A stretch of 64,000 nucleotides of DNA from Tengunoibacter tsumagoiensis (GTDB lineage: Bacteria > Chloroflexota > Ktedonobacteria > Ktedonobacterales > Ktedonobacteraceae), in the NCBI RefSeq assembly GCF_003967535.1, contig NZ_BIFR01000002.1, positions 992,001 to 1,056,000 on the forward strand. Direction: 5' to 3'. The stretch's first letter is position 1; every line of letters begins with the position of its first letter. This document shows positions 6,354 through 25,571 of this stretch, piece by piece. Below the pieces are notes generated by a model, which was not told the origin of the DNA, ran no database searches, and saw only the letters and a program-made list of their open reading frames with translations. Position numbers and translations under genes: made by a program.

Positions 6354-7615
6354 CAACATCAAAAGTCACGATGGTAAATCTGGGATATAAACAAACAGAT
6401 TTAGGCATGATTCCGGAAGATTGGGAGGCCAAAACTTTCGGTGAAGTTATGACTGGGTTTACGAGCGGGGCCACGCCTTCTCGGACACATCCCGAATTTT
6501 TTAAAGGGGATATACGTTGGATCACCAGTAGAGAGCTGGGTTACAACGTTATTAATGATACAATTGAGAAGATATCAGTTGAAGCTGTTTTCAAGACAAA
6601 TCTTAAATTGCTTCCTAAAGGAACTTTTTTAATAGCAATTACGGGAATGGAAGCAGAGGGAACAAGAGGAAGATGTGGAATTGTTGGTGAAGAGGCGACA
6701 ACTAACCAGCACTGTATGGCTCTTTTCCCATCTAAAGAGCTGAATACTTCTTATCTTTTTCACTATTATATGTATAAAGGAAAAGCTTTAGCAGTACAAT
6801 ATTGCCAAGGTACAAAACAACAAGATTATACAGGCAAGATTGTCAAATTACTTCCTATTGTGTTTCCTCCATCTATTAAAGAGCAACAAGCCATCGCCAC
6901 CGCCCTCAGCGACATAGATGCCCTGATCACCTCGCTCGACAAGCTGATCTCCAAGAAACGTGCTATCAAGCAGGCGACGATGCAGCAACTGCTGACTGGG
7001 AAGATGCGGTTGCCGGGGTTTAGTGGAAATGAAAATGGCAAATTAGGAGATCTTTTTGACCTAAATCCCAAGAGAACTTTGATTAGTGATACTGACTCAG
7101 TAACTCTTATTCGTATGGAAGACATTTCAGAAAATGGAACCATTCTTAATCAAAATGTTGTGCCCCTGTCGTTGATCAAGAAAGGGCTTACTTTTTTTGA
7201 GCGTAATGATGTGCTTGTGGCTAAGATAACTCCATGTTTTGAAAATGGAAAAGGCGCGTGCCTTGATACTCTAAAGACCAGATTTGGATTTGGTAGCACT
7301 GAGTTTCATATACTTCGGGCGAAGAGAAATGCAATTTCTCGATATATATTTTATCAAACCCAAACTGTTGAATTTAGACAGCAGTTAGAATTGGAGATGA
7401 TTGGTACCGCGGGTCAAAAGAGAGTACCACTGCAGTCTATAAGGAATTATGTATTGCCTGTGCTTCACTCGAGGGAGGAACAACAAGCCATCGCCGCCGT
7501 CCTTTCCGATATGGATACCGAGATCGAGGCGTTAGAACAGAGGCGAGACAAGACAGTCATGGTAAAGCAAGGAATGATGCAAGAGCTACTCACAGGGAAG
7601 ACGAGGTTAGTTTGA
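6347..7615 (+). CDS. hsdS: Type I restriction-modification system, specificity subunit HsdS
   Basis: This 422-residue protein chooses the two-part DNA target. It has the usual two target-recognition domains (~15-180 and ~230-380), each followed by a conserved helical spacer: EEQ-type QQAIATALSDIDALITSLDK ending in MQQLLTGKMRLPGF, and QQAIAAVLSDMDTEIEALEQ ending in MMQELLTGKTRLV. The spacer repeats are close copies of each other, as expected of the pseudo-symmetric family. Base use differs: the recognition domains are more A+T-rich than the spacers and than hsdM and hsdR, the usual sign of recombination swapping recognition domains. The start overlaps the end of hsdM, and the stop is one base before hsdR. 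Confidence 0.93.
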   Translation: MVATSKVTMVNLGYKQTDLGMIPEDWEAKTFGEVMTGFTSGATPSRTHPEFFKGDIRWITSRELGYNVINDTIEKISVEAVFKTNLKLLPKGTFLIAITGMEAEGTRGRCGIVGEEATTNQHCMALFPSKELNTSYLFHYYMYKGKALAVQYCQGTKQQDYTGKIVKLLPIVFPPSIKEQQAIATALSDIDALITSLDKLISKKRAIKQATMQQLLTGKMRLPGFSGNENGKLGDLFDLNPKRTLISDTDSVTLIRMEDISENGTILNQNVVPLSLIKKGLTFFERNDVLVAKITPCFENGKGACLDTLKTRFGFGSTEFHILRAKRNAISRYIFYQTQTVEFRQQLELEMIGTAGQKRVPLQSIRNYVLPVLHSREEQQAIAAVLSDMDTEIEALEQRRDKTVMVKQGMMQELLTGKTRLV

Positions 7616-7616
7616 T

Positions 7617-10600
7617 ATGAGCACCGTTGGCCGGCCTGAACGGGCCACGCAGGATCATGTTATCGAGCTTTTCAAGCAGCTGGGTTACACCTATCTGGGC
7701 AACTGGATCAATCGCGTGGCCAATAGCAATCTAGAGGAGGGCCTGCTGCGGGTCTATCTGCGGCGGCAGGGCTATAGTGAGATCCTCATCAATAAGACAG
7801 TGGTCACGCTGGAGAAGCTGCTCAAGGATCAGATTTGCAGTCTCTACGATATCAACAAAGACTTTTATGGGCTGTTGCGCTATGGAGTCCATGAAAAGGC
7901 CGATGTCAGCGAGAACACTGAGACCGTCTGGCTGATCGATTGGGAGCATCCGCTCAATAATGATTTTTCTATCGCCGAAGAGGTCACAATTACCGACGGC
8001 AACGAGAAGCGGCCCGACATCGTCCTGTATGTCAACGGCATCGCCCTGGGTGTACTGGAGCTCAAGAAATCAGTCACCTTTGTCAGCAAGGGCATCCGAC
8101 AGAACCTGCTCAACCAGAAGCGGGAGTTTATCGGCTCGTTTTTTTCGACTGTTCAGCTGGTCATGGCTGGCAACGAGAGCCAGGGGCTACGCTATGGCAC
8201 TACTGGCACCAGCGAAAAATATTATCTGACCTGGAAAGAAGCCAGTCCGGTCGAAGACCAGCTGGATCGTGGTCTGCTGCAGCTCTGTGCCAAAGAACGC
8301 CTGTTGGAGATCATTCACGACTTTACCATTTTTGATGGTGGCATCAAAAAGCTGTGTCGACCCAACCAATATTTTGGTGTACGAGCAGCCCAGGAGCGCG
8401 TACGCAAGCGCGAGGGTGGGATCATCTGGCACACCCAGGGGAGCGGAAAGAGTCTGACTATGGTCTGGCTCGCCAAATGGCTGCGTGAAAACATACATGA
8501 CTCCCGTATCCTGATCATCACCGATCGCGAGGAACTGGATGAACAGATCGAAGGCGTCTTCCTGGGTGTCAACGAACAGATCTATCGCACAACAAGCGGT
8601 CCGGATCTGATTACGCAACTAAATAAGACAACCCCAGCGCTGATCTGCTCGCTGATCCACAAGTTCGGCAGAAAGACCGACCGTCAGAGCGACGAAAACG
8701 ACAAAGCTGCCGTCGAAGCCTTTATTAAAGACGTCACAAACAGCCTGCCATCTGGCTTTAAGGGCAAGGGCAACATCTACATCTTTGTCGATGAATGTCA
8801 TCGCACTCAATCGGGCAAGCTGCACGAGGCCATGAAAGCCATCCTGCCCGGAGCCATGTTTATCGGCTTCACCGGCACCCCGCTGCTCAAAAACGACAAA
8901 GACAGCAGCATCGCCACCTTTGGCACCTTTATCCACACCTACAAGTATGACGAAGCTGTGCGCGACGGCGTCGTTCTCGACCTGCGCTACGAGGCCCGCG
9001 ACATCGAGCAGAGCCTCAGTTCGCCCGCAAAGGTTGATCAATGGTTTGAGGCCAAGACTAGAGGACTCAACGACATCGCCCGCGCGTATCTCAAGCAACG
9101 CTGGGCCACCATGCAAAAGGTCCTCAGCTCGCAGGATCGGTTGGAAAAGATCGTCGCCGACATCTTGCTCGACATGGAAGAGAAGCCGCGTCTCATGAAC
9201 GACCATGGCAACGCCATCCTGGTCGCAGGCAGCATCTACCAGGCCTGTCGCTACTACGAAATTTTTACCAGCAAAGGCTTCAAGAAATGTGCCATCATCA
9301 CCTCCTATAAGCCCGGTGTCAAACACATCCAGGACGAAGAGAGCGGCGAGGGCGAGACCGAACGCTTGCAGCAGTACGACATCTACATGAAAATGCTGGG
9401 TGGCAAATCGATCGAGAAGTTCGAGGACGATGTAAAAGAGCAATTCATCAAAGAGCCGGGCCAGATGAAGCTGCTCATCGTCGTCGACAAACTGCTTACC
9501 GGCTTTGATGCTCCCTCCGCCACCTACCTGTATATCGACAAAAAGATGCAGGACCATGGACTCTTTCAAGCCATCTGTCGCGTCAACCGTCTGGACGATG
9601 AAGATAAAGACTACGGCTATATCATTGACTACAAAGATCTCTTCAAGAGCCTGGAAAGCTCCGTCAAGACCTACACCTCAGAAGCCTTTGCCGGTTATGA
9701 GCAGAGCGACGTCGATGGACTGCTCAGCGACCGCATCACAAAGGGACGTGAGCGGCTGGAGGATGCACGGGAGGCCGTCAAAGCGCTCTGCGAGCCTGTG
9801 CAGCCACCAAAGGGCAGCGCCGAATATCGACGCTACTTCTGTGCTCGCGACGCCAACAACGAACTGACAGCAGAGAGCGAGCCCAGACGTTTAGAGCTCT
9901 ATAAGCTCACTACAGCCCTTGTGCGAGCCTATGCCAACCTGGCCAATGACCTTCCCACTGCTGGCTATTCAGCGCAAGAGATCGAGACCCTCAAACAAGA
10001 GGTTGACCACTACGAAAAGATCCGCCAGGAGATTCGGCTCAGCAGTGGAGACGCCATCGACCTCAAAATGTACGAGCCAGCCATGCGCCACCTGATCGAC
10101 ACCTACATTCGGGCCGAAGACAGCGAGGTCATCACCACCTTTGAGAATGCGGGTCTGCTCCAACTGCTCGTCGAGCGCGGGCCAGCGATTGTTGATAGCT
10201 TGCCAGAGGATCTCAAAGATCCGGAAGCCATGGCTGAAGCCATCGAAAACAATACACGGCGTGTCACCATCAACGAGCGGCCTCTGAACCCGGTCTACTA
10301 TGACAAGATGTCCGAACGGCTTGATGCATTGATCAAACTCCGGCAGGAAGAGGCCATCGAGTATAAAGAGTACATTCTGCGCATGCAGGCCCTGTTGAGT
10401 GAGTTAGGAAATCAGGGCAGCAGCGGCTCCTATCCTCATTCTATCAACACACGTGGCAAGCAAGCGGTGTATGATACAATACAGCGGTACGGCACAGAGC
10501 ATCAGGAGCAATCGCTTGATAGTGAGAGCCTGACCAACGGCATCAGCGAGGAGATCCGAGTCAGTGCTCATCATGGTTGGCGAGGGAACCAGATGAAAGA

Positions 10601-10694
10601 GCGAAAAATGTTTGCTCTTCTGCACAAATATATTACCGATGAAGAGTTATGCAACCAGATTCTCAAGATCATGAAGGGGCACGCAGAGTTTTAA
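7617..10694 (+). CDS. hsdR: Type I restriction-modification system, endonuclease/translocase HsdR
   Basis: This 1025-residue motor and nuclease cuts unmodified DNA after ATP-driven translocation. The N-terminal PD-(D/E)xK nuclease has RPD at 132-134 and ELK at 148-150 (RPDIVLYVNGIALGVLELKK). The SF2 translocase has Walker A GSGKS (275-279), ITDREELDEQ, DECH (392-395), motif III GFTGTPLL and a second RecA lobe with LLTGFDAPSATYLYIDK and ICRVNRLDD. A long helical C-terminus follows for binding to HsdM/HsdS. All catalytic motifs seen are intact and the length is normal, so the three-gene set is probably active. The start is one base after the hsdS stop. Confidence 0.95.
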   Translation: MSTVGRPERATQDHVIELFKQLGYTYLGNWINRVANSNLEEGLLRVYLRRQGYSEILINKTVVTLEKLLKDQICSLYDINKDFYGLLRYGVHEKADVSENTETVWLIDWEHPLNNDFSIAEEVTITDGNEKRPDIVLYVNGIALGVLELKKSVTFVSKGIRQNLLNQKREFIGSFFSTVQLVMAGNESQGLRYGTTGTSEKYYLTWKEASPVEDQLDRGLLQLCAKERLLEIIHDFTIFDGGIKKLCRPNQYFGVRAAQERVRKREGGIIWHTQGSGKSLTMVWLAKWLRENIHDSRILIITDREELDEQIEGVFLGVNEQIYRTTSGPDLITQLNKTTPALICSLIHKFGRKTDRQSDENDKAAVEAFIKDVTNSLPSGFKGKGNIYIFVDECHRTQSGKLHEAMKAILPGAMFIGFTGTPLLKNDKDSSIATFGTFIHTYKYDEAVRDGVVLDLRYEARDIEQSLSSPAKVDQWFEAKTRGLNDIARAYLKQRWATMQKVLSSQDRLEKIVADILLDMEEKPRLMNDHGNAILVAGSIYQACRYYEIFTSKGFKKCAIITSYKPGVKHIQDEESGEGETERLQQYDIYMKMLGGKSIEKFEDDVKEQFIKEPGQMKLLIVVDKLLTGFDAPSATYLYIDKKMQDHGLFQAICRVNRLDDEDKDYGYIIDYKDLFKSLESSVKTYTSEAFAGYEQSDVDGLLSDRITKGRERLEDAREAVKALCEPVQPPKGSAEYRRYFCARDANNELTAESEPRRLELYKLTTALVRAYANLANDLPTAGYSAQEIETLKQEVDHYEKIRQEIRLSSGDAIDLKMYEPAMRHLIDTYIRAEDSEVITTFENAGLLQLLVERGPAIVDSLPEDLKDPEAMAEAIENNTRRVTINERPLNPVYYDKMSERLDALIKLRQEEAIEYKEYILRMQALLSELGNQGSSGSYPHSINTRGKQAVYDTIQRYGTEHQEQSLDSESLTNGISEEIRVSAHHGWRGNQMKERKMFALLHKYITDEELCNQILKIMKGHAEF

Positions 10695-10696
10695 GT

Positions 10697-11413
10697 ATGC
10701 ATCAGATTACTGTGAATGGCTATGTTGTGGATGTGGTGAGGAAAGATATCAAGAACCTGCACCTGGGCGTGTATCCACCGGAGGGCCGGATCCGAGTGGC
10801 AGCCCCGTTGCGCGTCAACGACGAGGCCGTCCGGCTCTTCACCATCTCGAAGCTCAGCTGGATCAAGCGACAGAAAACCAAGTTCATTGACCAGGAGCGT
10901 CAGACCGAGCGTGAATATGTCTCAGGCGAGAGCCATTATTTTCAGGGGCACCGCTATCTGCTCAATGTCATCTATCGACCAGGCACTCCACAAGTCGTTT
11001 TGCGCAACCACAAATATATCGACCTCATCGTGCGACCTGACAGCAACACCTCCGATCGCGAGCGTGTGCTGTTGGGTTGGTATCGTCAGCAACTGAAAGC
11101 CGAGATCCCCGCTTTGTTGGAGAAATGGGAAAAGATTATTGATGTGCAGGTCGCCGAATGGGGTGTCAAGCAGATGAAGACGAAGTGGGGGACCTGTAAT
11201 AGCAAAGCGGGGCGTATCTGGCTCAACCTGGAGCTCGCCAAGAAACCTATGCATTGCCTGGAGTACATCATCGTCCACGAACTAGTCCACTTGCTGGAGC
11301 GGCACCATAACGAACGCTTCCAGGCATACATGGATCGTTTTTTGCCGTTATGGCACCACTACCGTGAAGAACTCAACCGGTCACCGCTGGGACATGAGAC
11401 CTGGGAGTATTAG
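10697..11413 (+). CDS. YgjP/DUF45-type zinc metallopeptidase
   Basis: This 238-residue protein starts at ATG 10697, two bases after the hsdR stop, so it is the last gene of the restriction operon. It belongs to the YgjP/SprT-like (DUF45) group, recognised by the C-terminal KWGTCNSKAGRIWLNLELA segment and the zinc motif HELVHLLERHHNERF, where two His and the Glu of HExxH plus a later His are present. The N-terminal half is beta-rich (VYPPEGRIRVAAPLRVND). Genes of this family often sit at the end of type I restriction operons. Its exact role there, perhaps quality control or protein turnover, is not established, and I infer only the association. Confidence 0.85.
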   Translation: MHQITVNGYVVDVVRKDIKNLHLGVYPPEGRIRVAAPLRVNDEAVRLFTISKLSWIKRQKTKFIDQERQTEREYVSGESHYFQGHRYLLNVIYRPGTPQVVLRNHKYIDLIVRPDSNTSDRERVLLGWYRQQLKAEIPALLEKWEKIIDVQVAEWGVKQMKTKWGTCNSKAGRIWLNLELAKKPMHCLEYIIVHELVHLLERHHNERFQAYMDRFLPLWHHYREELNRSPLGHETWEY

Positions 11414-11435: not shown

Positions 11436-14400
11436 CTACTCATCTTTTGAGCTCATTAATAACATGTTAATGATATTAAGCTCTTGAGACATAAAGAGAT
11501 ACCTTCCTGTAAACATCTTGCTGCGAGCTTCATTAAGGGTGAGGCTGCGGAAAACAACAAATGGGAACTCTTCATAGCCTTTACCAATAGGGAGAACGCT
11601 ATCAATTGGATAGAGTGCTCGAAGATAGCGTTCCAGTAAGGTCCGAAACGATTGGCCTTCGTTGTCGTCCTCATAATCTTTTTTGTGAGAGAAATACTCT
11701 TTCATCGTATCATAAGCGAGAAACGTAACGAGTGGAAGTGCAAAGTGCTGATCTGTATGGTTGCTTTCTTGCTCATAATGAGGATCTTTATGATCGGTCA
11801 CCGTTGCTAATGCTTGAAGAAGCGTAATACCATCGCGTAGTGCGAGCTGAAAACTGGGAGGGCTGATCGGATGAGTAATGAGCTCACGCATAGCTTTAAG
11901 CAGGTCAAATTTGCGTCTTTGATCGCGTTTGAGTACTTGTTCTACCTGCATCCAGTAAGCTTCTTGTATTGACATATTAGCGATAGGAATAATCAACATA
12001 TTTCCTGCTATATGGCCGGGTTCCATCACTGCATAATCGAGAAGTCGATCAAAACCTTGACGTATTCTGTTCTGGAAATCCAGGGTAAACGTGGGAATGC
12101 GAGGAATATAGTGCTCTTTTTTCTGATCGCTCCTTTTTGTAAGATCAGCTGGGCGCAAACTAATACGTGCGTGTTCAAGAAGAAGAGAAATACTTTCGTG
12201 TATATGCAGAAGGTCGCGGATGTCAGGATTGCTATAGTAGAGGTTTTGTGCTTCTTTAATAAGACGATTCATACGTGACGTGAAAGTCTCTCCTGCTGCA
12301 TTGACTGACTTCCCACCAATTGGTATCATAATAAAATGCTGGTTTATCCCCAACTTCATACTCCCAGAGATGCGTGTCATCATTGAAAGCTTCAGAATGA
12401 GCAAAATATTCAGGATATTGAGCATACTTTCGCGGACTGAGACCTCTCGATCCATGTCTTTTGTGTAGACGACACGATCAGTCAGATAGAACGTAAGGTA
12501 TTTCTCTGCCTGATCCAGTTCTCCTCCTCTGCCTCGGTAGATAACCTGCAAAATTTCCATCAAGTTCTGCTCAATCTCAAAATGTGGTATTTCAATAAGG
12601 ATATGAGTAGCATTCGGAAAAGAAAGCCCACGGCTTGCTGATGCCGTCATAAAGACGACTTTCACTTTTGTTCGATATTTGGCAATCGCATCTCGACCAT
12701 TTTCTGAAAGATTAGCATTAATTTCTAGATAGTGAATGTATAATTCAAAAGCAGCGCGTTCTTTTTTGACCATTTGGATTAAGTCTGCCAGGCGTTTTTT
12801 ATTCTGGATATAAACTAGAAGTTGGGGGGTGTCTGTACTATCTAATGCGCTGATGATATCGGCGCAGATCCGACTTTGCGTTCTTTTTTGAAGTTCCTTA
12901 CTGCGATCAATAAAGGTCGTCTCATCATAGATCAAGGTATCGACGCCGATGCGATACGTGATATGAAGTTTGTTCGCGGGATAGGCATTGGCATTGATGA
13001 CGGCAGCGCTTCGCGTTTTGAAATCGGTATAGTCAAGACTGAGTGGTGCCATTTGTTGTTTTTGTGCTGGATTTATACGGCGGAAGTAGACTTTATCGGG
13101 TTCGTAAGTTGTATCTCTAAGATGTTGTTGGATAATTTTTGGATCGACAATAGAAGCATCTGCAACAATAACCTTAGTATCAATATATGGTGATGTGAAT
13201 AGCTCATATTGCTCTAGAAAGGAATGTAATCCATGTAAGAACTCGACGCCGCTCTCATCTCCCGTAACCTCATCAATCATGATAAAAAAGTGTCTTATTT
13301 TATTGCCTAGCTGCTGGATCTTTTGAGGGATAACCTCGCCTTGCGGACCGCGCAAGCCTTTGAAGATCTTATCAAAGTGATGAAGTGTACTGCCCTTTTC
13401 TGTGCCTAAACGTTTGAGCGATTGTATAGCTACCGTAGCAACGATAGCATGGCTTAAGGGTTTCTCTAAAGTTACATGAATTGCGCTACAGAGGCTATCA
13501 AGAACACCACTTACACTATTGCCTTTGTCGATTAATAGCCCTTCTTGTATTTCTTCAAGATGCTGTTTTTTTGTTTTTTGTCGTTTAGCATCTTCGCTAT
13601 CAGCGTGGATAAAGGAAATATTCTGTTCCACAAACGTATCCATACGTTGTTGTGAATAGTAATGAACCGCTTTTTGTGCTGCATTGTTGCGAATGATTAC
13701 GGAATTTGTCGTCAATCCAAATAAATGCTCGCAAGGGGGTTGGCCTGTATTCTCGCGAAATTTCTCTATAATATCAAGATTGACCTGTTTGCGTGGGCTA
13801 ATGTAGAGAAATAGAAAGCCCTCTCCATTTTGCTCTGCTTTTTTCAAAAAATTCACAATAGCAGTTGTTTTGCCAATACCCGGGTTACCTGTTAAGAACA
13901 CATAAGGATGTGACGACTGAAGAGTTTTTGTAACCAGTGCAGCGTGGGAATCAAGGATCGATTGCCCTTCATAGTCTTCTGGCTGGAGAACCGTTTTCGC
14001 TAGTGGATTGAGAGATTGAGCACTCAAAGGTGCGCGAGTATTGATAAATTGATCAAGGGTTTCTTGATGTTCTAGCCAGCGTATACCATCGCCTTTGTCG
14101 ACCAGATGGAGCAGATTCGAAGTGAAGTCGCGTCCTTTTTCAAAGCTCCTTGATGCTGCTTTCTGGACATCAGCAAGGACTTTATGACGAGCTTCCTTAA
14201 TGGTTGTACTACTGATATTTTGCTTATAAATTTCCGCACACTTGGCAAGCAGATCAACCTGGCTCTGGTTCACTGACATGGCATTAATGGCGCGATCCGT
14301 ATAACCAATGATATTGAAGAGAACTTCATCATCAATTTGAAGTATGCCCTTTTTGAGCAGAAAGCCATAGAAATCGTACGCATAGCTGGCAGCTTGAATA

Positions 14401-15221
14401 AGTTTGGAGGTTTCTTTATCTTCGCGTTTGAAGGCTGTAAAGTAATTTTTGAGCTGTTCCGACAGAATATTTTCTGGAGAAGTTGTTGATGTATCAGCAT
14501 CAATACTCAGATTTGTAAAGACGCTTTTAGAGCGCAGATAGCGGAGTTCAGCTTCCAGCATACGCTTAATATTATCGACATTTCTAAGGTTACGCGTCTC
14601 ATCCAAACTAGCCAGAGAGAAGATTGAAAGATCAAGGCAGAGGATACGCCAATGTTTTCTGCCATACCGAAGGAGCAGCAGTGTATCAGCTTTCAGAAAA
14701 TTGCCCTTTCGGCTATGTTCACGCCTCTCTTCGCTTGTTGTAAGCGTTGGTAAGCCTTGCGCGATCAGCTGATGCATGAGATCTTGAGCCGCAACCTCCT
14801 CATTTTTGACGAACGTGTTCAGGCTGTTTTCATCATGAAAGTTGCATTGTAGATAGACAATATGCCTTTTTAATTTAGGCCGATCCTTACTAAAGGAGTG
14901 AAGATATTCTCCAAAGAGGTTCAAACCAGCCAGAAAACCTTTTTGTATAATATAGAGCATCCACAGACGAAGAGAGTCTTTATCCAATTCGCCAAATACA
15001 CCAGTGCGTTTATACATGTTTTCTACGAGAGCAGGGAAGCGGAGTTGGTGAAGATCCTGCTTATATACATCACCGAAGTAATGTGTAATTTCTTTGTGTT
15101 GGCCAATGGCCGTAAGGAAGCCCGTATTGAAGCCAACTTCGAATATCCTGCCTAAATTCTCAGCAAATTGGCTATGAATTGGTGCTTTCTCATCATTTTT
15201 TTCATTTTTGTTCTCACGCAT
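11436..15221 (-). CDS. Very large P-loop helicase-like ATPase of an uncharacterised two-gene system
   Basis: This 1261-residue protein is the second gene of a minus-strand pair. I prefer ATG 15221 (AAAGGG five bases before it) to the TTG at 15239. Residues ~1-420 are mostly helical and match no family I know; a segment KADTLLLLRYGRKHWRILCL could be a divergent nuclease-like or recognition strand pair. An ATPase core follows: Walker A GNPGIGKTT (~445), a Walker B-like IDEVTGD (~650), a motif III-like VIVADAS (~685), and near residues 858-900 MTASASRGLSFPNATHILIE then ILQVIYRGRGG, which resemble SF2/DinG-type motifs V and VI. The C-terminal ~360 residues are helical and unrecognised. Together they suggest a nucleic-acid translocase working with the partner gene 18 bases upstream. 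Location beside restriction genes suggests defence. Confidence 0.65.
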   Translation of the reverse strand: MRENKNEKNDEKAPIHSQFAENLGRIFEVGFNTGFLTAIGQHKEITHYFGDVYKQDLHQLRFPALVENMYKRTGVFGELDKDSLRLWMLYIIQKGFLAGLNLFGEYLHSFSKDRPKLKRHIVYLQCNFHDENSLNTFVKNEEVAAQDLMHQLIAQGLPTLTTSEERREHSRKGNFLKADTLLLLRYGRKHWRILCLDLSIFSLASLDETRNLRNVDNIKRMLEAELRYLRSKSVFTNLSIDADTSTTSPENILSEQLKNYFTAFKREDKETSKLIQAASYAYDFYGFLLKKGILQIDDEVLFNIIGYTDRAINAMSVNQSQVDLLAKCAEIYKQNISSTTIKEARHKVLADVQKAASRSFEKGRDFTSNLLHLVDKGDGIRWLEHQETLDQFINTRAPLSAQSLNPLAKTVLQPEDYEGQSILDSHAALVTKTLQSSHPYVFLTGNPGIGKTTAIVNFLKKAEQNGEGFLFLYISPRKQVNLDIIEKFRENTGQPPCEHLFGLTTNSVIIRNNAAQKAVHYYSQQRMDTFVEQNISFIHADSEDAKRQKTKKQHLEEIQEGLLIDKGNSVSGVLDSLCSAIHVTLEKPLSHAIVATVAIQSLKRLGTEKGSTLHHFDKIFKGLRGPQGEVIPQKIQQLGNKIRHFFIMIDEVTGDESGVEFLHGLHSFLEQYELFTSPYIDTKVIVADASIVDPKIIQQHLRDTTYEPDKVYFRRINPAQKQQMAPLSLDYTDFKTRSAAVINANAYPANKLHITYRIGVDTLIYDETTFIDRSKELQKRTQSRICADIISALDSTDTPQLLVYIQNKKRLADLIQMVKKERAAFELYIHYLEINANLSENGRDAIAKYRTKVKVVFMTASASRGLSFPNATHILIEIPHFEIEQNLMEILQVIYRGRGGELDQAEKYLTFYLTDRVVYTKDMDREVSVRESMLNILNILLILKLSMMTRISGSMKLGINQHFIMIPIGGKSVNAAGETFTSRMNRLIKEAQNLYYSNPDIRDLLHIHESISLLLEHARISLRPADLTKRSDQKKEHYIPRIPTFTLDFQNRIRQGFDRLLDYAVMEPGHIAGNMLIIPIANMSIQEAYWMQVEQVLKRDQRRKFDLLKAMRELITHPISPPSFQLALRDGITLLQALATVTDHKDPHYEQESNHTDQHFALPLVTFLAYDTMKEYFSHKKDYEDDNEGQSFRTLLERYLRALYPIDSVLPIGKGYEEFPFVVFRSLTLNEARSKMFTGRYLFMSQELNIINMLLMSSKDE

Positions 15222-15239
15222 ATATTGACCCTTTGACAA

Positions 15240-18200
15240 TTATTTTGTATGAAGAACTGCACGCACCAATGTTAAAAAAGCGAGTGAATTGAAATGTACA
15301 TTCCCTTTCATAGCAGGGAAGATTGCATCTTTACTAACCGATGAGTCTCCGATAATATCCATATATGGATCGAGCTTGAAGCCAAGCTGACTGGATTTTT
15401 CATAGCGGGCAAAATGGAGAAGGGTAAGAAAATCCAGAATATCAACCTTTAAAGAATTGGGAAGTGGTTCGCTTAGCAGATCAGCCCAGATATACTGATC
15501 GTAGCTTGGATCATCGTACATGTTAATCAAAGTGGCATAGGAAATCACACCATTGTAAATAGCTGTTGGGTTAACCTTGATGCCGCTAAATAAATTGAAA
15601 AAGATAAGAGATTGCTTGCTTGGGTCTTTAGCGACAGATGTTAATTCCCCAATGTCATCTATGTAGAGCGAATCAGCTTTGAGATTTGGTTTGCCTGGAG
15701 ATTGTAAAGCGTTTTTGCGATTAATAACATAATATTTATCATAGAAGATGGGATAAACCTTAATGTCATTGTCAATAGAACGCATTGACTGAACGACATC
15801 TTTATTCATGAAAAAGAGATCTTCTTTACCTGTATCAGAAATATGGAGAGTGCTCGTATAAGGGGCACGGGCAACATATAAGAAGTGTTTGTAGCCAAGA
15901 GCGTGGCATTGTTTGACTTGTTCCAACAACACATGTGGTCTTTGAAACATATCTTCATTATTCTGATTAGCTGAAAAAGTCGAGAGTGTTTGTAAACGCA
16001 TTGAGCCATCTGGTTGACGTTCAATGCCAATGACTTTGCCAAGAATGGTGCCCTCGTAATACTGAGGTGAATGTATATTTTCATCGCATTTGCGGCTAGA
16101 AACAATGATAATGGCTAATTTTTGTAACATACTTGCCGGGTTATAATGCGAGATCTGTTGTGTACGGCGAAAAATGATAGGAAGCGCAGAATAGAGCGAG
16201 TGGAGAGCATTTTTCAGTTTAAACGCATGTTCGCCTCGTGCTGTATCAAGGTAAAAACCTTGAGATCCGCTAGTATAATCCACAGATAGCATATGGCTCA
16301 AAACTTTCATGAGGGAATGGATGAACGTTTCGTCTGTGTATTGCTCATTGCCTTCATCTGGTAGTTGTTCCTCAGAATGAATAGTCAGGAGAGGGCAGAA
16401 AATTTCGCGCGCCTGAATCTTTGATACACTTCCAGCGAGTATATCAAGAAACAAGTAGGCCAGTAGTGTGTAGGTAAAACGATAGACGAACGCTTGAGCG
16501 GGGTCTGAATGGACATGGGGCCGATGTCGATAATAGAGAAAAACGCGTTTGACATCCCTGTACACATCCTTATATTTCTGAGCTAATTTGCCTCCCATAG
16601 GCACAAAGAAGACGGGAAGAACTTGAATATTTTTCGTTTCATGAGTAATAGTAAATGTTTCGGCAGCATCAGCTGTAGGATAGTAATAGATAGGTTCAAA
16701 GGTCAAACGGAGTGGTAGTTTGCAGAGCGCTTCTGTACTGGTGCTATCTTCTTTAACTGAAACATATTTAAGCGCTTTCTTGCCGTTATAGCCATCAAAC
16801 GTATCCTGGAAAAAAATATTATTCATGACCATTTTATTCACATCTTTTATCAAGATACTTTTATCAAGACTGAGAACAAGAGGATCTTCAAAGCGTTTCG
16901 GTCCAATGCTTGACTGTGTTAAGAAGGCAGTCAAAAGCGATTTTAAGATCTCGATATTGCCGCTTACTTCGGGCGTGGTAATTTCATTTTTCAATTGCTG
17001 GAGTACTTGTATCTTCTCAATATCTTTCCCATCGCGCAGGATTGGGAGTAGTTGTTGTTCAAAATAGGCTCCAGCTCGGAATGTATTGTTTCTCATCTCC
17101 TTAAAAACGAAACAGTAAAGCAATGCCACTTTTACTACTTTCTCATAAAAGCGTTTCGGTGAGCGAGCTCCAGCCAGACGGGCTGTGTAATCTGTACTCT
17201 CTGGATCAAGGAGAGAGGTATTGTACTCAAAGACAGATTTGCCGCTCCCTCCATGTACATTGACAGCACCATTCAGCTTGAGCTTAATGCCAGTTGTGAA
17301 AGTTTTAGTTTGATGGTTCAGGTCAGTACTTTCTCCCAAAAAACCATCAATTTCGGTGATGATCGGAAGTTGGTCAAATGCATCTGCACGTGAGAAAATA
17401 TCGCGATAGTTGTAGGTTTGCCCACCAAAAGAAACGTCGTAGTAGCCATAGTCTTTCTCTTCCTGGCGAATGTAGGCATCCAGCCCCTGGAGCCGTTTTA
17501 TAAGGTTATTAAGTAAATGCAGTCCCTGATATTGCCTTTCTTCGTTATCATTTCTTGCTGTTTTATTGATAATATCTTTTTTCCATTCTTTTATTCCGTT
17601 GAAGAGATAGCGAAGATATCGGACTTTCGCGTCGCGGTAGATGCGAGCGACAGACTCTTTGATCAAAACAGTTCGCAACTGACTAAAATTAGATGTAGGC
17701 TGTGCAATCTCTTCTCCCAATGCTTCGCGAACCTCTTCAATATCATCATCCTGGCAGTTTTCCTGTTGTGAAAGATAGTTACAAATGTTGTCTATAATCT
17801 GCTGATGGAAACTACCAATATTACCTACAGTAAGTGTCAGCTTATGGGCTTTGAGCCAGGGAGTTGACTCTGGTTTGTGCGCATGGGCGTGCAGACGTTT
17901 TTTCTCTAAAGACTGCTCCTTAGATAAAGGGTAATTCAGACCAGTTGTTTGGTTGTTGGCAAAATCCTCCATAGGGGTGAGAAGCTGGTTGGCAAAATGT
18001 TCAAGTGAAGTTTGGCCAGTACCAGCCTTAATATGTGCGAGAATTTGTTGATGAAGTTGTGGCTGAATTTTATCTTTCAATTGTACATGAAAGGCGCTTT
18101 TTTCAGCGAGTGAGAGTGCATGAACAGTTGCATAGCTCATACCCTCTTTTATTTCAAATGGATATTCGTTACTTTTTGCGAATTGAACTGCGACTTTATC

Positions 18201-18371
18201 GGCAAGAGCATCGATGTCGAAAGCAATCAGATCTGTTTTCACATGAATTAATCGTTCTGGTGAACCCTGTTCTGAGGAAAGCTGTTTAATTGCTTGGGAG
18301 ATAGCGCTAAGAATTTTCTCATAATTTACGGGGGCTAAATGATGTTCAATGACTTCAATGTTATTACTCAT
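15240..18371 (-). CDS. Very large unknown protein, partner of the helicase-like ATPase, possible PIWI-like C-terminus
   Basis: This 1043-residue protein, first gene of the pair, has no family I can name with confidence. ATG 18371 (MSNNIEVIEHHLAPVNYEKI) is chosen; the frame is open further upstream, with ATGs at 18437 and 18542, and no strong ribosome binding site decides. Residues ~1-350 are helical with a low-complexity acidic stretch; the middle is beta/alpha mixed. From ~752 to the end the strand-helix order (LAIIIVSSRK, then GYKHFLYVARAPYTSTLHIS, then DIKVYPIFYDKYYVINRK, then SLKVDILDFLTLLHFARY) recalls a PIWI domain. The acidic residues expected after the first and second strands are not there, so it would be catalytically dead. 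It ends 18 bases before its partner. Function unknown; a defence role is inferred from context. Confidence 0.6.
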   Translation of the reverse strand: MSNNIEVIEHHLAPVNYEKILSAISQAIKQLSSEQGSPERLIHVKTDLIAFDIDALADKVAVQFAKSNEYPFEIKEGMSYATVHALSLAEKSAFHVQLKDKIQPQLHQQILAHIKAGTGQTSLEHFANQLLTPMEDFANNQTTGLNYPLSKEQSLEKKRLHAHAHKPESTPWLKAHKLTLTVGNIGSFHQQIIDNICNYLSQQENCQDDDIEEVREALGEEIAQPTSNFSQLRTVLIKESVARIYRDAKVRYLRYLFNGIKEWKKDIINKTARNDNEERQYQGLHLLNNLIKRLQGLDAYIRQEEKDYGYYDVSFGGQTYNYRDIFSRADAFDQLPIITEIDGFLGESTDLNHQTKTFTTGIKLKLNGAVNVHGGSGKSVFEYNTSLLDPESTDYTARLAGARSPKRFYEKVVKVALLYCFVFKEMRNNTFRAGAYFEQQLLPILRDGKDIEKIQVLQQLKNEITTPEVSGNIEILKSLLTAFLTQSSIGPKRFEDPLVLSLDKSILIKDVNKMVMNNIFFQDTFDGYNGKKALKYVSVKEDSTSTEALCKLPLRLTFEPIYYYPTADAAETFTITHETKNIQVLPVFFVPMGGKLAQKYKDVYRDVKRVFLYYRHRPHVHSDPAQAFVYRFTYTLLAYLFLDILAGSVSKIQAREIFCPLLTIHSEEQLPDEGNEQYTDETFIHSLMKVLSHMLSVDYTSGSQGFYLDTARGEHAFKLKNALHSLYSALPIIFRRTQQISHYNPASMLQKLAIIIVSSRKCDENIHSPQYYEGTILGKVIGIERQPDGSMRLQTLSTFSANQNNEDMFQRPHVLLEQVKQCHALGYKHFLYVARAPYTSTLHISDTGKEDLFFMNKDVVQSMRSIDNDIKVYPIFYDKYYVINRKNALQSPGKPNLKADSLYIDDIGELTSVAKDPSKQSLIFFNLFSGIKVNPTAIYNGVISYATLINMYDDPSYDQYIWADLLSEPLPNSLKVDILDFLTLLHFARYEKSSQLGFKLDPYMDIIGDSSVSKDAIFPAMKGNVHFNSLAFLTLVRAVLHTK

Positions 18372-19748: not shown

Positions 19749-20444
19749 ATGCCCATAAAGATGGTCGTACAATGCTGCGGTCATTGTGGAAACAAGACTG
19801 CTTTTACGATTGCAGCTTCTGGATCGCAACCAAATGGCATGTTCATTCAAGAAAAAGAAATCACTATCTGGACAACCTGGCGTGTTTTGTTATGCTCAAC
19901 GTGTGCACAACCTACGCTAGAACGCGATATACAGAAGGTAAAAGGATCAACAGGATCTATTCCCCCAGGAAGGAGTGAGTCTCCAGAGGTGCTCTACCCT
20001 GTTGAGCAGTCAATCCACTGGCGGCATATTCCTCCCAGAGTTCAGTAGATGTATGATGAAGCACAAAGAGTGGAGAAAGTGTCTCCTCGTTCGTGTGCGA
20101 TGATGGTGGGTTTAGCCCTCGAGGCTATTTGTGAAGCTGAAAAAGCCAAAGGAAATACATTATCGGAACGTTTGCAGAGCCTCGCAACGCTAGGACGTAT
20201 TCCTGGCACGTTGGCGGAAATGGCTCAGCACCTCAGGCACTTTCGGAATATGAGTGTCCAGTCGTATAAAATAAAGCAAGTAAGAAAAAGAAAGATAAAA
20301 ACGTATGACTATGATGATCGCTCTGGTAGGAGATCAGCCACAGCCAAATTTTCTACCAGCATTACACTATCGTCCGGATACCATTCTGTTGGTTTACACA
20401 CAACAAAAGCAGGAAAAGTACGAATACTTAAAAATAATGCTTGA
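19749..20444 (+). pseudogene. DUF4145-like gene interrupted by an in-frame TAG and then decayed
   Basis: The frame from 19749 starts with a small zinc-ribbon-like part (CCGHCGNKTAFTI, later CSTCAQ), as in DUF4145 proteins. It reaches PPRVQ, meets TAG at 20046-20048 and goes on in the same frame with MYDEAQRVEKVSPRSCAMMV, then LALEAICEAEKAKGNTLSER and GRIPGTLAEMAQHLRHFRNM. This last part is the DUF4145 core. After FRNM the likeness stops and the frame overlaps the next gene. DUF4145 domains are common in restriction and defence proteins. As it stands it would give two peptides, so I call it broken. Confidence 0.6.
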
Positions 20445-21231
20445 ACAACAAAGGTTTACTATCATTGGGTTAGAAACGGATCCTTATAATATCACTACGA
20501 TAGTAGCCGCTTTAAAAGAGAAGATTGCTGAAATAGTTGCATTGACACCTCAACCATTGATATTCAATTTGACCGGTGCGACAAAAATCATGTCACTGGC
20601 AGCCTATCAGGTTGGAGAACAATGTAATGCATCTGCTTTGTATATGCAGAGTGAAGGTGGACAAAGTAGAGTTGATCACTATATCTGGCAACGCCACCAG
20701 CTTCTTTATCAGAAGCAAGAAATATTACCAGAGCACCTCCATCTGCGTGATGTACTAGACCTCCAACTCGGACAAGGAAAAGAGCGATGGGAAGCAAAGG
20801 GCCCAAGCAGTGATGATAAAAATTATGGCCATCTCTTTGAATTGGCGATTGCACAAGCACTACGAAATCATGGTTATGAAGTCATGTGTGGTGTCAAAGG
20901 GAAGAATAATCAGATCGATATCGATGTTATGGTTAGGTACGAAAATCAAGTAAGTATTATTGAAGCAAAGACTTCTGCAACAGGGTCGGTGACTAATCTT
21001 GATGCGGTTAAACAACTTAGTACTGCATCAAATTATTTAAGAGGAACATATATTAACTCATTTCTAGTCATTAATGGCAAAGCATCAAAAGATTTAGCGA
21101 TGATGTGTGGTTTATTGAAAATTCCTATCATTTCCCTACCACATTATAAACGAGGTGCAACGGCTTTCTCTTTGTCTGAGGAAGATAGCAAGACATTGCT
21201 AACTGAAATTGATCGCAAAATGAAGAGATGA
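20305..21231 (+). CDS. Card1/Can2-like CARF-domain nuclease (DUF1887 type)
   Basis: This 308-residue protein has an N-terminal CARF-like Rossmann domain (residues ~1-140) with the first strand MIALVGDQPQPN and the hallmark NLTGATKIMSLAAYQVG at 88-104, the ligand-loop motif of DUF1887 proteins. The C-terminal PD-(D/E)xK nuclease (~170-300) has Glu179 in the first helix (YGHLFELAIAQALRN), Asp205/Asp207 in NQIDIDVMV and Glu220-Ala-Lys222 in VSIIEAKTS, so the active site looks complete. Characterised relatives Card1 and Can2 are switched on by cyclic oligoadenylates made by type III CRISPR complexes and degrade nucleic acids. No CRISPR genes are visible here, so it would be an orphan or act with another cyclase. 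The ATG at 20305 is backed only by weak purine-rich sequence. Confidence 0.8.
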   Translation: MTMMIALVGDQPQPNFLPALHYRPDTILLVYTQQKQEKYEYLKIMLEQQRFTIIGLETDPYNITTIVAALKEKIAEIVALTPQPLIFNLTGATKIMSLAAYQVGEQCNASALYMQSEGGQSRVDHYIWQRHQLLYQKQEILPEHLHLRDVLDLQLGQGKERWEAKGPSSDDKNYGHLFELAIAQALRNHGYEVMCGVKGKNNQIDIDVMVRYENQVSIIEAKTSATGSVTNLDAVKQLSTASNYLRGTYINSFLVINGKASKDLAMMCGLLKIPIISLPHYKRGATAFSLSEEDSKTLLTEIDRKMKR

Positions 21232-21443
21232 GTGTGAGGATCGAGGACCAGCTCAAAGCCAAAATCAATGACGAGAAGAGGATGCTCTGCAAGGAACGCC
21301 TACAACTCCTGGCTGTAGATAATGCCTTCTTGAAGGCGTAAAAAGGGACATTTTAAGATGGGCAGTCATAGGCCGCTCTGTAGAACTTCTGTGTGAAGAG
21401 CGCTGTTGGAGCCAGATATTGATGATGGACCAATCAAACAAGC

Positions 21444-21740
21444 TCAACACTTGCTCCAGACCTTTGTCGAGAGGGCTTGTTTTGATATTAACATATAAGG
21501 AAAAGAACGTTCGGTAGCGTTGGAGCAAGTCCACTCTTGCTCAGCAAAATCCTCGGAAACATCTTCAATGAGCACGTTCACAGGAACCGCAAGGGCTTTG
21601 GCAAGTTTATTGATTGTTGTCGTCGCAACTTCACGATAGGGGTCTCGATAAATAGCTCGTAGGATATTGGTCGCCATATCAGCAGCCCTCGCCAACTTCC
21701 CCTGACTTAAGCCTTTCTTCAGCGCTACTTCTTTTACTCT
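21444..21740 (-). pseudogene. Small XRE-type HTH gene with damaged start
   Basis: The minus-strand frame encodes VKEVALKKGLSQGKLARAAD then MATNILRAIYRDPYREVATT and KLAKALAVPVNVLIEDVSED, a complete one-domain Cro/CI-type helix-turn-helix. The frame upstream of VKEV has a TGA, and the only nearby ATG (in ATGAAGAGT) is one base out of frame, so a deletion seems to have removed the start. Translation from the internal ATG at 21695 would lack the first two helices. A long tail (to 21444) follows that is not family-like. Confidence 0.5.
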
Positions 21741-21744
21741 TCAT

Positions 21745-22170
21745 CTTAACATACTTGGATTGTAACAAGGAAATACGCTGAGTAGAAGCTCCTTTATAGG
21801 TATATCTTTGTAGCTATTACTTCGTAAAGATATCACTAGAAATATCTACTTCTGTGAATCATTTATCGAATGGCTCATTCACTTTTGAAAAGTGCCTGTG
21901 GTGTGCATGGATGAAGATCGCATCACAGCTTTGACGAGAGATCCTGAAGGGAACCTGTTTTTTCTGCTTGCTCTGGAGTGTTCGCCGAAAAGATCAACCA
22001 CTTCCACGTGAATATGCTTACTTGGATGTTGGAAGCAGTCGATCCAGAAAGGGAGAACCGCTCTTCTCTCCACATAGAGAAATTTGAACGTAGAACAGGG
22101 TTTGCTTGTTTGTGCGCCTGTCAATTGTCATTTTTCAAACAAAATAATTTCATTTTTATGGATAAAATTG
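21745..22170. other. A+T-rich intergenic stretch with scraps only
   Basis: A short frame around 21930 reads LTRDPEGNLFFLLALE, which recalls the end of a glyoxalase/VOC-fold protein, but nothing longer is kept. The last 60 bases are the approach to a strong promoter. Confidence 0.3.
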
Positions 22171-22199
22171 TTGACATGTCAGATTTTAGTGACTATAAT
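22171..22199 (+). promoter_or_regulatory. Consensus sigma-70-type promoter with overlapping palindrome
   Basis: TTGACA at 22171-22176 and TATAAT at 22194-22199 are exactly 17 bases apart, both matching consensus at every base. A perfect 10-bp palindrome, TGACATGTCA (22172-22181), overlaps the -35 box and would be a fitting operator, perhaps for the XRE-ImmA protein encoded in the unit. The first gene begins 92 bases downstream. Confidence 0.8.
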
Positions 22200-22291
22200 T
22201 ATGGAGATACACCATGATACACCACCTGTAATGCGTCATCGTGAGCGAGTAGAAAAGTATGATGAGCCATGTGTTCAGAGGTGAGAAGCTT

Positions 22292-22927
22292 ATGCCTGAT
22301 GGTGATGAGGTACGCGAAACGGTAGGACGAAACTATCAAGGTGCCTATAAAAGAATATGTGCGGACAAAAGTGAAGACGATGATTTGGTGATTGCCGTTG
22401 TGCGCTCAACTGTCGAGCGCCTGAAGAAGTATGGAGATGAAGCTGTTCAGCTTGTAGCAAATATAGCCCATTTATGTGAAGCTATGCATCTGGACATATC
22501 CTTGTTCAGTCGTTCTATTGACTATGCCGTATTGAGAGAAAATATAGCTACTATTGCGCAAGAAACCTGTATGGATAAAAGAGCAAAGAACCTTGTGTTA
22601 CAGGGGTGTAAAGAATCTATAGAAATGATTCGTCGGGGAGGAAACGTTTCCAATATCCATATTGAAATGTTACAAAGTTACTTTTGGAGCGTCTACCGGT
22701 CCGACTTTGAGGCCTATGTTGAATCTGGGAAAGACCACATGCATAACGCATCACCTTCAGTCGTGAATGCAACCCTGGCTCGTATGAGACCACACGTGCG
22801 AGAGCGATTGCAACAGTTTGCTGAACGAGCGTATCGAGATAACACTCTCACGACATTTCGTCCAAGACTGCGGTACTCAGGAAAAGAGAAAGGGGTTCCA
22901 ATAGACCTCAACCTGTTAAACATCTAG
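22292..22927 (+). CDS. Unknown helical protein, first gene of the QueC-like/ImmA/PIN unit
   Basis: This 211-residue protein starts at ATG 22292 (AGAGGTGAG before it), in preference to ATG 22259. It looks all-helical and soluble: ERLKKYGDEAVQLVANIAHL, then a Cys-bearing middle (QETCMDKRAKNLVLQGCKES) and a basic C-terminus (ARMRPHVRERLQQF). I recognise no family and see no catalytic motif. The next gene starts 11 bases after its stop, and a consensus promoter lies 92 bases before it, so it is the first gene of a four-gene operon with the QueC-like protein. It could be an adaptor for that protein. Confidence 0.6.
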   Translation: MPDGDEVRETVGRNYQGAYKRICADKSEDDDLVIAVVRSTVERLKKYGDEAVQLVANIAHLCEAMHLDISLFSRSIDYAVLRENIATIAQETCMDKRAKNLVLQGCKESIEMIRRGGNVSNIHIEMLQSYFWSVYRSDFEAYVESGKDHMHNASPSVVNATLARMRPHVRERLQQFAERAYRDNTLTTFRPRLRYSGKEKGVPIDLNLLNI

Positions 22928-22938
22928 GAGATGAATGC

Positions 22939-24306
22939 ATGAAGAGCGATTTTGATTATACATATGAGTACCAGAGTATTCACGATGAACTCAAAAAAGG
23001 ACACGTGCTACGTGTTGATCATTGGACTGGAGAGGCCAGGAATCTTAACATTGCCCTCTGGGATAGAGATTTATTGCTGCGGACAACTGCTGATGAGGTG
23101 AGCTCCTTGATTGCTGATTTAAGCGATCTAGCAGTCGCTGTCTACGTTGCAGATCATCTTTCCGAGAGAAGAAAAAAGAGAACGACACGTCTCCTTATCA
23201 ATCTCCCAATACGGAGCGTTGAATTAAGAGAGAGGAGTACGTTCAAGCAGGAATTGCGTGATCTCTTATACTGGTTTACGGAAGACCTATGGAGTTTTCA
23301 GTTTAGTACGTATCGAACTAATGGGCGTCAATCGGAGTTGCATAAGCGTCTGATCTCTGATTATCCAAAGTCATCGAGACGCGTTGCTTTGTGGAGTGGA
23401 GGATTGGATGCGCTGGCGGGACTCTATCTGCAACTGGTGCAAGAACCGGAAACGGATTATACTCTAGTAAGTACAGGAAGTAGCCTGATGATGGGAGGGA
23501 AGCAAAAAAAAGTTTTTCAGCAAATGAATGAGATCTTTCCAGGGAGACTGAAATTAATCCAACTCCCGATCCGTCTTGGGAAAAAAGAGGTGAAAACCGA
23601 ACAGGGTAATCGAACACGTGGTTTTGTGTTCCTCTTGTTAGGAGCACTCTGCGCCCTCCAGGAAATGCAACATACGTTGTACATTCATGAGAATGGTATT
23701 GGAGCAATCAATCTTCCATTTCGTGATTGTGAAGTTGGTTTAGATCACTCTCGTTCGGTTCATCCTCTCACACTTGCACGAATGGGTACCTTTCTTGAGA
23801 AACTTCTCGGCCATCCCTTTTCATTCGAGAATCCATTTTTGGGGACAACGAAAGCTGAAATGTGTCAGCGTCTCTTGCGGGAGCATCCTGAGATTGTTTT
23901 CTCCACGATGAGTTGTGATCATTGGCATCGAGAGATCCCTTTACAGTGTGGATATTGCTCGTCCTGTTTGTTAAGGCGTCAGGCAATAGCCGTTTCTGGT
24001 ATTGAGGATACACTGTCCTATAGGATTACCGCTGCGAAAGATAGAAAAAGGCAAAAAACTGATGGTGTCCATCTCAGAGCAATGCTTGCTCAAGTGGATA
24101 CGTTGCGCGATATACGAGACACAAAAGAGGGCGACATCTGGGGAGCACTTATTGCGAAATATCCAGTGTTAGATGACATAGTCAGACAAGATGAAAGAGC
24201 TGAGAAGCAACAGCAAGTAAAGAACCAATTGTTGCATTTATACCAGACATATGTGAAGGAATGGGATCAAGTGAGCCCTCTTATACAAGAGGATATGCAT
24301 CTTTAA
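22939..24306 (+). CDS. QueC-like PP-loop ATPase (7-cyano-7-deazaguanine synthase homologue)
   Basis: This 455-residue protein carries a QueC-type domain after a ~140-residue N-terminal region of its own. The PP-loop reads RRVALWSGGLDALAGLYL (~152), with Ala in place of the usual Ser of SGGxDS. Later come the family-type segments ENGIGAINLPFRD and TKAEMCQRLL, and the zinc site with Cys at SCDHWHREIPLQCGYCSSC, matching the four-Cys arrangement of QueC. Housekeeping QueC is ~220 residues and makes preQ0 for tRNA. This longer form, in an operon with regulatory and PIN-like genes and without queD/E/F, fits the QueC-like proteins of anti-phage loci such as QatC. Its reaction here is unknown. Confidence 0.8.
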   Translation: MKSDFDYTYEYQSIHDELKKGHVLRVDHWTGEARNLNIALWDRDLLLRTTADEVSSLIADLSDLAVAVYVADHLSERRKKRTTRLLINLPIRSVELRERSTFKQELRDLLYWFTEDLWSFQFSTYRTNGRQSELHKRLISDYPKSSRRVALWSGGLDALAGLYLQLVQEPETDYTLVSTGSSLMMGGKQKKVFQQMNEIFPGRLKLIQLPIRLGKKEVKTEQGNRTRGFVFLLLGALCALQEMQHTLYIHENGIGAINLPFRDCEVGLDHSRSVHPLTLARMGTFLEKLLGHPFSFENPFLGTTKAEMCQRLLREHPEIVFSTMSCDHWHREIPLQCGYCSSCLLRRQAIAVSGIEDTLSYRITAAKDRKRQKTDGVHLRAMLAQVDTLRDIRDTKEGDIWGALIAKYPVLDDIVRQDERAEKQQQVKNQLLHLYQTYVKEWDQVSPLIQEDMHL

Positions 24307-24350
24307 AACATGAGAGCTCCACAAAGCAGCTTGATGAAAGAGGAATGAAC

Positions 24351-25571
24351 ATGAATGATATCTTAGAAACAATTGACATGAACATGTTAGGGAAAGAGCT
24401 TCAGCAAGCGCGTGTGAAAAAAGGGCTGACTCAAGAACAAGCTGCTCGTATTATCGATGTTGCACGTACGACAATGCTCTCGATTGAAAAGGGTGATAGA
24501 CGTATTAAAGCTCATGAGTTGATAGCATTAGCATCTGCTTATGATGTACAAATAAGCGACTTTCTGCGGGATCGCTCAAATCTCAACTGGTCAAAGCCAC
24601 AATTTCGTGGCCCTACATTAAGAACAGAGCAAGATGATCAGATTATTGCGCCCTATATTGAACAATTGGCTCAGTTGGCCCGCAATTATTTTGAACTAGA
24701 AAGAATAAATGCTGCACCATTCCTTCGAAAATATCCCCAAGAATATAGCATTGGTGGCCTGTCGACACGTGAAGCAGCTGAAAACATTGCTATAGAAGAA
24801 CGAATACGTCTAGGAATAGGCGATGGACAAATCCCTGTATTACGTGATATTCTTGAACAAGATGTGGGTATACGCATTTTCTACTATCCATTGCCTCCAA
24901 AGTTCTCTGCAATTTATTTATTTGAAGAACAAGTAGGAGGGTGTATCGCAATCAATAGTAACCATCCTGAGGAACGCCGTCGCTGGTCGTTAGCTCACGA
25001 TTATGGCCATTTTCTGATTCATCGAACCAAACCTATTGTGACGAGTGAAGATGGGTATCAGCGGAAACCTGAAAGTGAACGTGTGGCAGATGAATTTGCA
25101 GGCTATTTTCTTCTCCCTACCAGCGGTGTCACCCGGCGTTTCAACGATATTCGGAGAGCCAAAAAAGCGGTGACGCCAGCTGATTTATGTACGCTTGCTG
25201 ATTATTATGGAGTCTCGGTGGAAGCCATGACCCGGCGGTTAGAAGATCTAAAATTATTATCATCTGGGATATGGGAGAAATTACAGGCTCGTGGTTTTAA
25301 AGTGCGTGAAATGCAGAAACAGTTGGGGATAAATTTCAGAGAGGACCAGATACAAAAACTGCCAAAACGATATCAATATCTGGCGCTTGATGCTTTTGAG
25401 CAAAATTTAATGAGTGAAGGTATGCTGGCGCAGTTCTTAGATATTGATCTATTAGATACAAGGGCCCTTGTAGAGAGTATGAAAGGAGAGAGCATGGACG
25501 CTAATGCTTCGGTTGCATTGTTTCATGCGAGTGAGGAAGTCTCAATGCAAGAGGATGAGCATGATAGATGA
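24351..25571 (+). CDS. XRE-ImmA/IrrE (COG2856) regulator-metallopeptidase
   Basis: This 406-residue protein is predicted to start at ATG 24351 (AGAGG seven bases upstream). Residues ~10-70 form an XRE helix-turn-helix (LQQARVKKGLTQEQAARIID then VARTTMLSIEKGDRRIKAHE). After a linker comes an M78-type metallopeptidase: VGGCIAINSNHPEERRRWSL, then AHDYGHFLIH in place of the standard HExxH (Asp instead of Glu), and ERVADEFAGYFLLP carrying the third ligand. Proteins of this kind repress their own operon and are cleaved or cleave a partner on damage or phage signals. The Glu-to-Asp change could lower proteolysis. Its stop overlaps the start of the PIN-like gene, the arrangement of a toxin-antitoxin pair. 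Confidence 0.85.
   Translation: MNDILETIDMNMLGKELQQARVKKGLTQEQAARIIDVARTTMLSIEKGDRRIKAHELIALASAYDVQISDFLRDRSNLNWSKPQFRGPTLRTEQDDQIIAPYIEQLAQLARNYFELERINAAPFLRKYPQEYSIGGLSTREAAENIAIEERIRLGIGDGQIPVLRDILEQDVGIRIFYYPLPPKFSAIYLFEEQVGGCIAINSNHPEERRRWSLAHDYGHFLIHRTKPIVTSEDGYQRKPESERVADEFAGYFLLPTSGVTRRFNDIRRAKKAVTPADLCTLADYYGVSVEAMTRRLEDLKLLSSGIWEKLQARGFKVREMQKQLGINFREDQIQKLPKRYQYLALDAFEQNLMSEGMLAQFLDIDLLDTRALVESMKGESMDANASVALFHASEEVSMQEDEHDR

Follow-up and report, generated by a model that had tools for sequence, protein, structure and literature searches.

What kind of system is formed by two very large adjoining genes in a 64,000-nucleotide stretch of the genome of the soil bacterium Tengunoibacter tsumagoiensis (hereafter the window)? 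An initial annotation, made from the letters of the window, had taken the pair for an undescribed two-gene system that targets nucleic acids. The Argonaute-like fold of the first protein, the SF2 helicase of the second and the co-occurrence and co-evolution of the two across phyla support that view, and the pair is probably a guided defence against foreign DNA that has no existing name.

The gene pair and its setting

The open reading frame listing and the sequence agree with the earlier description of two very large minus-strand genes separated by 18 bases. Gene A (15240–18371, ATG at 18371) encodes an Argonaute-like protein of 1043 aa, and gene B (11436–15221, ATG at 15221) encodes an SF2 helicase of 1261 aa with a nuclease-like N-terminal domain; the gap between the stop codon of A and the ATG of B spans 15222–15239. 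Both start codons concur with those of the homologues, spacing is tight or overlapping in most relatives, and A and B are a probable single operon. Given their size and their full-length conservation in other phyla, the two frames have not arisen by chance. Relatives were found in Dictyobacter, Ktedonobacter, Ktedonosporobacter and Thermogemmatispora, as befits a genome of Ktedonobacteria type.

On the left, as first described, lies an intact type I restriction-modification operon (3978–11413) encoding HsdM, HsdS, HsdR and a YgjP-like zinc metallopeptidase, the gene of which (10649–11410) overlaps the end of HsdR. On the right (20305–25568) are genes for a CARF-PD-(D/E)XK nuclease of the Card1 type (20305–21228), a QatC-like protein (22939–24303; PADLOC, 1.7e-44) and an XRE-ImmA protein. 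A complete Qat operon is not obvious around the QatC-like gene; the gene that precedes it (222 aa, at 22259) had no PADLOC match and only a sub-threshold Pfam match.

Predicted folds of the two proteins

Protein A, "unknown" to the initial annotation, had no sequence-family match in Pfam, NCBIfam or PADLOC. Structure prediction reveals an Argonaute-like protein, which that annotation had overlooked. The AlphaFold2 model of A, built with 49 homologues, has a pLDDT of 84 and a pTM of 0.84. All 32 Foldseek hits to the PDB at E ≤ 1e-3 were Argonautes, with TtAgo at the top (1.9e-6, probability 1.00). The TM-scores are low (0.15–0.25 of the query), which indicates an overall arrangement unlike that of known Argonautes. 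Alignment of A by hhalign to pAgo and pPIWI-RE profiles gave nothing significant; the best of these insignificant alignments sets the QG of A next to the MID glutamine of pAgo, which we do not count as proof. The Pfam Piwi and pPIWI_RE models did not match A, and pPIWI_RE matched none of 16 A-family members. As the profile comparisons are negative, we assign A to the Argonaute/PIWI superfamily at the level of fold only, by its modelled MID-PIWI architecture.

The secondary structure of the model suggests a MID-like region at approximately residues 605–745 (16137–16559, minus strand), with a boundary that we infer. Among 64 sequences, K689 is conserved in 44, Q704-G705 in 63 and K/R718 in 50. 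A thus appears to keep three residues of the predicted guide-pocket motif K...QG...K/R, which also resembles the pocket of long-B pAgos. Read as the Y/H-K-Q-K pocket, in a register that we infer, it mostly lacks the first aromatic residue. The strand-helix order of the model points to a PIWI/RNase H-like region at approximately residues 750–1043 (15243–16124, minus strand). Where the first two catalytic aspartates are expected, by topology and not by superposition, A has S758-S759 in beta 1 and A834 followed by Lys, His or Gln at 835 in beta 4. With Ser or Ala/Lys/His/Gln at two of its Asp positions, the DEDX tetrad of active pAgos appears to be lost, and on the strength of these replacements the PIWI region is probably catalytically inactive. 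Altogether, A looks like a highly diverged, inactive Argonaute. By Foldseek it shares the MID-PIWI fold of the classical long prokaryotic Argonautes (Piwi, PF02171), and it differs from them in the missing Piwi Pfam hit, the missing catalytic Asp at the expected positions, its larger size (~1040 aa) and the almost constant company of B.

The helicase-like motifs noted earlier in the second protein are borne out by a Pfam Helicase_C match (7.8e-6, above the Pfam cut-off) and by their invariance in 58 of 58 sequences. Motif I (GNPGIGKT, residues 445–452; 13866–13889) holds the invariant K451 and T452, motif II (DEVTGD, residues 650–655; 13257–13274) the invariant D650, E651, G654 and D655, and motif VI (QVIYRGRG, residues 892–899; 12525–12548) the invariant Q892, Y895, R896, R898 and G899, all encoded on the minus strand. 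The AlphaFold2 model of a full-length relative (L117, pLDDT 81) matched Brr2, MrfA, UvrB and RecQ in Foldseek, with E-values down to 9e-9. These three motifs, together with two RecA-like folds, make B an SF2 helicase.

Upstream of the helicase, B has a PD-(D/E)XK-like N-terminal domain (14322–15044, minus strand) marked by E105, D179, D/E197-x-S199, K269, K273 and Q276xxxY280. These residues are essentially invariant from Ktedonobacteria to Acinetobacter: D179, D/E197, K269, K273, Q276 and Y280 occur in 58 of 58 sequences, E105 and S199 in 57 of 58. In the L117 model the domain follows an alpha-beta-beta-beta-alpha-beta order. Serine stands in place of the usual lysine of (D/E)xK, and an invariant lysine of a helix may substitute for it. 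Comparison of the domain with Cas4 and PDDEXK_1 by hhalign, with shuffled controls, gave nothing significant; its invariant residues and model topology predict a likely PD-(D/E)XK nuclease.

Distribution, co-inheritance and neighbourhoods

B has homologues in Ktedonobacteria, cyanobacteria and proteobacteria, and in nearly every case A adjoins. An alignment scan with B detected 216 B loci in GTDB genomes, and our locus set comprises the best 80 of these, mostly from filamentous cyanobacteria. At 73 of these 80 loci the retrieved sequence includes A, whole or in part, with few exceptions immediately upstream of B; at the A-less loci among the best 80 of 216 a contig end mostly intervenes. Neighbour families at the best 80 of 216 loci included no third gene common to the loci. 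In the relatives search 14 of 101 genomes, including that of T. tsumagoiensis, had a match to A. B is present in 13 of the 14 Ktedonobacteria-order genomes with A or an A fragment; the one without it (G017) has only a fragment of A. A pattern scan of genome contigs with A alone used patterns that were too specific and gave no match, and a search of viral contigs and phage records found no relatives of B.

Among 339 cyanobacterial genomes, 48 contain B and 41 contain A, and every one of the 41 A-positive genomes also has B. Six of the seven B-only genomes carry a divergent, low-scoring B, and the seventh has internal stops in B. Set against Pfam Piwi (17/194) and pPIWI-RE (4/146), these counts put the A/B family, which sequence models miss entirely, level with or above the recognised Argonautes in frequency among the sampled cyanobacteria. 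Exactly one A was found in each of nine genomes tested; these include the two (of loci L085 and L092) in which A does not lie beside B but elsewhere. One genome (G011) has a single B and a second A (L032) with no adjoining B, which we treat as a solo paralogue.

Distances among A proteins closely track those among B proteins (Mantel r 0.966, n = 45 pairs; none of 2000 permutations reached this value). The pair is genuine and old, its two proteins diverge in parallel, and across phyla the genes are passed on, or lost, as a unit. In one cyanobacterium stop codons run throughout both genes (G160:C1:2059295-2063697), consistent with joint decay. Two other cyanobacteria have tandem units, A-B-A-B with the contig cut (L058) and A-B-A (L059).

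The pair also travels on plasmids. Six conjugative cyanobacterial plasmids carry it, and plasmids of Cupriavidus, Acinetobacter and Acetobacter carry a divergent version. The B of this divergent branch is ~1300 aa long and on the proteobacterial plasmids (L038-L041) has an A-like neighbour of 1100–1200 aa; the branch also occurs in six cyanobacteria (G117, G136, G173, G202, G257, G305), where the A3 profile detected no A partner.

In Ktedonobacteria other than Thermogemmatispora the pair often adjoins defence genes. In Ktedonosporobacter rubrisoli (L044, 13944–23597) a complete HmaA-HmaB-HmaC set directly follows it, a DndH-like gene lies near another copy (L043), and drmD of DISARM lies near a Nostoc plasmid copy. 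One to five related methyltransferase genes follow the pair in Thermogemmatispora (L046-L049, L054) and were not seen there in other genera. Most cyanobacterial chromosomal copies stand in conserved housekeeping synteny and not in defence islands, with the order purQ-A-B-trpE in Nostocales and pheT-YciI-A-B-bcp in Microcoleus-like genera; the PADLOC top hits among their neighbours are almost all to kinase-type models. The pair is therefore sometimes mobile and sometimes a long-term resident.

The initial annotation had named housekeeping settings as evidence against a defence system, and on account of the conserved synteny of the cyanobacterial chromosomal copies this objection applies to half of the picture: those copies do sit among housekeeping genes, whereas the Ktedonobacteria copies outside Thermogemmatispora often lie near defence genes, as do some plasmid copies. 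The pair might accordingly be a chromosomal housekeeping or genome-maintenance complex, acting for example in R-loop, repair or replication-fork processing, in which the PIWI/RNase H-like fold works without guides. Such a complex would fit the synteny with purQ, trpE, pheT and bcp kept in many cyanobacteria, the generally single copy per genome and the presence of the RNase H-like NurA lower in the Foldseek list of A. We nevertheless consider it unlikely, as the pair occurs in only ~14% of the sampled cyanobacteria, stop codons interrupt both genes in G160, and there are copies on plasmids and, in Ktedonobacteria, next to defence systems. With cyanobacterial chromosomal copies in fixed housekeeping synteny, a defence role is likely for the pair and falls short of proof; the case for it comes from homology of plan with known systems and from the copies in Ktedonobacteria and on plasmids.

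Relation to known Argonaute-helicase systems

The pair is unnamed in PADLOC, NCBIfam, Pfam and the open-access journal papers searched. PADLOC gave no match to BREX, DISARM, Hma, Druantia or Wadjet, in keeping with the earlier failure to place the pair in BREX, DISARM, Druantia or Wadjet. What the initial annotation overlooked were the nearest relatives in working principle, DdmDE and ApsAB. In DdmDE of Vibrio cholerae an inactive, guide-loaded Argonaute brings a helicase-nuclease to plasmid DNA (PMC12409362), and ApsAB from E. coli ST38 consists of an Argonaute-like protein and a nuclease/helicase protein (PMC11096173). These two systems define the kind to which the pair probably belongs. It departs from them in the order of its genes, the order of its domains and its motifs, and it has no library sequence match.

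Like DdmDE, in which a catalytically inactive Argonaute-like protein accompanies an SF2 helicase bearing a PD-(D/E)XK-type nuclease, the pair has two genes, here for a probably inactive Argonaute-like protein and an SF2 helicase with a putative nuclease domain of that type. DdmD has an N-terminal helicase and a C-terminal nuclease (PMC12409362), whereas the nuclease-like domain of B precedes the helicase. No PDB sequence hit connected the pair to DdmD or DdmE at E ≤ 1 for B and E ≤ 10 for A, and PADLOC gave no DdmDE match to A or B, a result that bears on DdmDE only if the library includes it.

The pair could instead be a divergent member of ApsAB/DdmDE proper, in which case B would be ApsA/DdmD in rearranged form and A would be related to ApsB. 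The two-component logic is identical, and ApsAB-like systems have been reported in cyanobacteria. The ApsB motif Y[X]3K[X]nQG[X]nK is functional, with K413A abolishing ApsAB activity (PMC11096173), and its K...QG...K signature recurs in A as K...QG...K/R; the tyrosine of ApsB is not conserved in A. Several differences nonetheless make membership quite unlikely. ApsB reportedly has neither PIWI nor PAZ (PMC11096173), whereas A has a PIWI-like fold. The gene order is reversed, with apsA first in ApsAB and A first here, and ApsA and DdmD carry the nuclease at the C-terminus, whereas the nuclease-like domain of B, if it is one, lies at the N-terminus. The helicase motifs of ApsA (GFGKS, DELH, QAVGRVER) are unlike those of B (GIGKT, DEVT, QVIYRGRG) and are spaced differently, and the PADLOC and PDB searches gave no sequence match. 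The distinction from ApsAB is drawn from its published description and not from a sequence comparison; a degenerate QAVGRVER pattern run on viral contigs returned unrelated proteins only.

On balance we favor, with moderate confidence, a two-protein, guide-directed nucleic-acid defence that works like DdmDE and ApsAB and is a separate variant. The fold of A, the pairing and the helicase of B are computed here, and DdmDE offers the analogy for the guides, target, recruitment and nuclease activity that follow. The MID-like pocket of A would hold a short guide by its 5′ end, and A would pair this guide with incoming foreign DNA, for instance a plasmid or a conjugating element. Unable to cut, its PIWI active site being lost, A would recruit B, which would load on the displaced strand and unwind the target, while its N-terminal PD-(D/E)XK-like domain would nick or degrade it. 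It is highly improbable that the pair defends by abortive infection, with A a guide-independent sensor and the helicase protein killing or arresting the cell. In favour of this reading, other inactive prokaryotic Argonautes work via auxiliary effectors (PMC11442185), and the pair is enriched in multicellular bacteria, Ktedonobacteria and filamentous cyanobacteria among them. Against it, the MID pocket residues are conserved, and B is no typical NADase or membrane toxin but a helicase that retains every motif.

Tentatively, and at somewhat less than even chances, the guide-directed pair may represent a third independent lineage of Argonaute plus helicase/nuclease, distinguished by a helicase family of its own, a nuclease-like domain at the opposite end and a deep-branching Argonaute. 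In cyanobacterial orders it would be a fixed chromosomal pair, commoner there than recognised Argonautes, whose guides police plasmids or transcribed foreign DNA. If the pair is indeed a guided defence against plasmids or phages, it could restrict the flow of DNA into Ktedonobacteria and filamentous cyanobacteria, and the Argonaute-helicase partnership would have been assembled more than once. The two genes offer a compact pair in which to study how an inactive Argonaute recruits a helicase.

The pair also resembles pPIWI-RE, in which the gene for a diverged bacterial PIWI protein accompanies those for an SF2 helicase and a nuclease (PMC3702460). It differs in having only two genes, whereas pPIWI-RE has three, with a DinG-type helicase and a separate REase (PMC3702460). 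In Thermosporothrix hazakensis (L050, 16394–22793) a pPIWI-RE/DinG set lies a few kb from the pair (PADLOC: PprDinG, 7.7e-121; PprPIWI, 9.3e-53). BLAST detected no similarity between A and this PprPIWI neighbour, and the arrangement places two distinct PIWI-helicase systems side by side.
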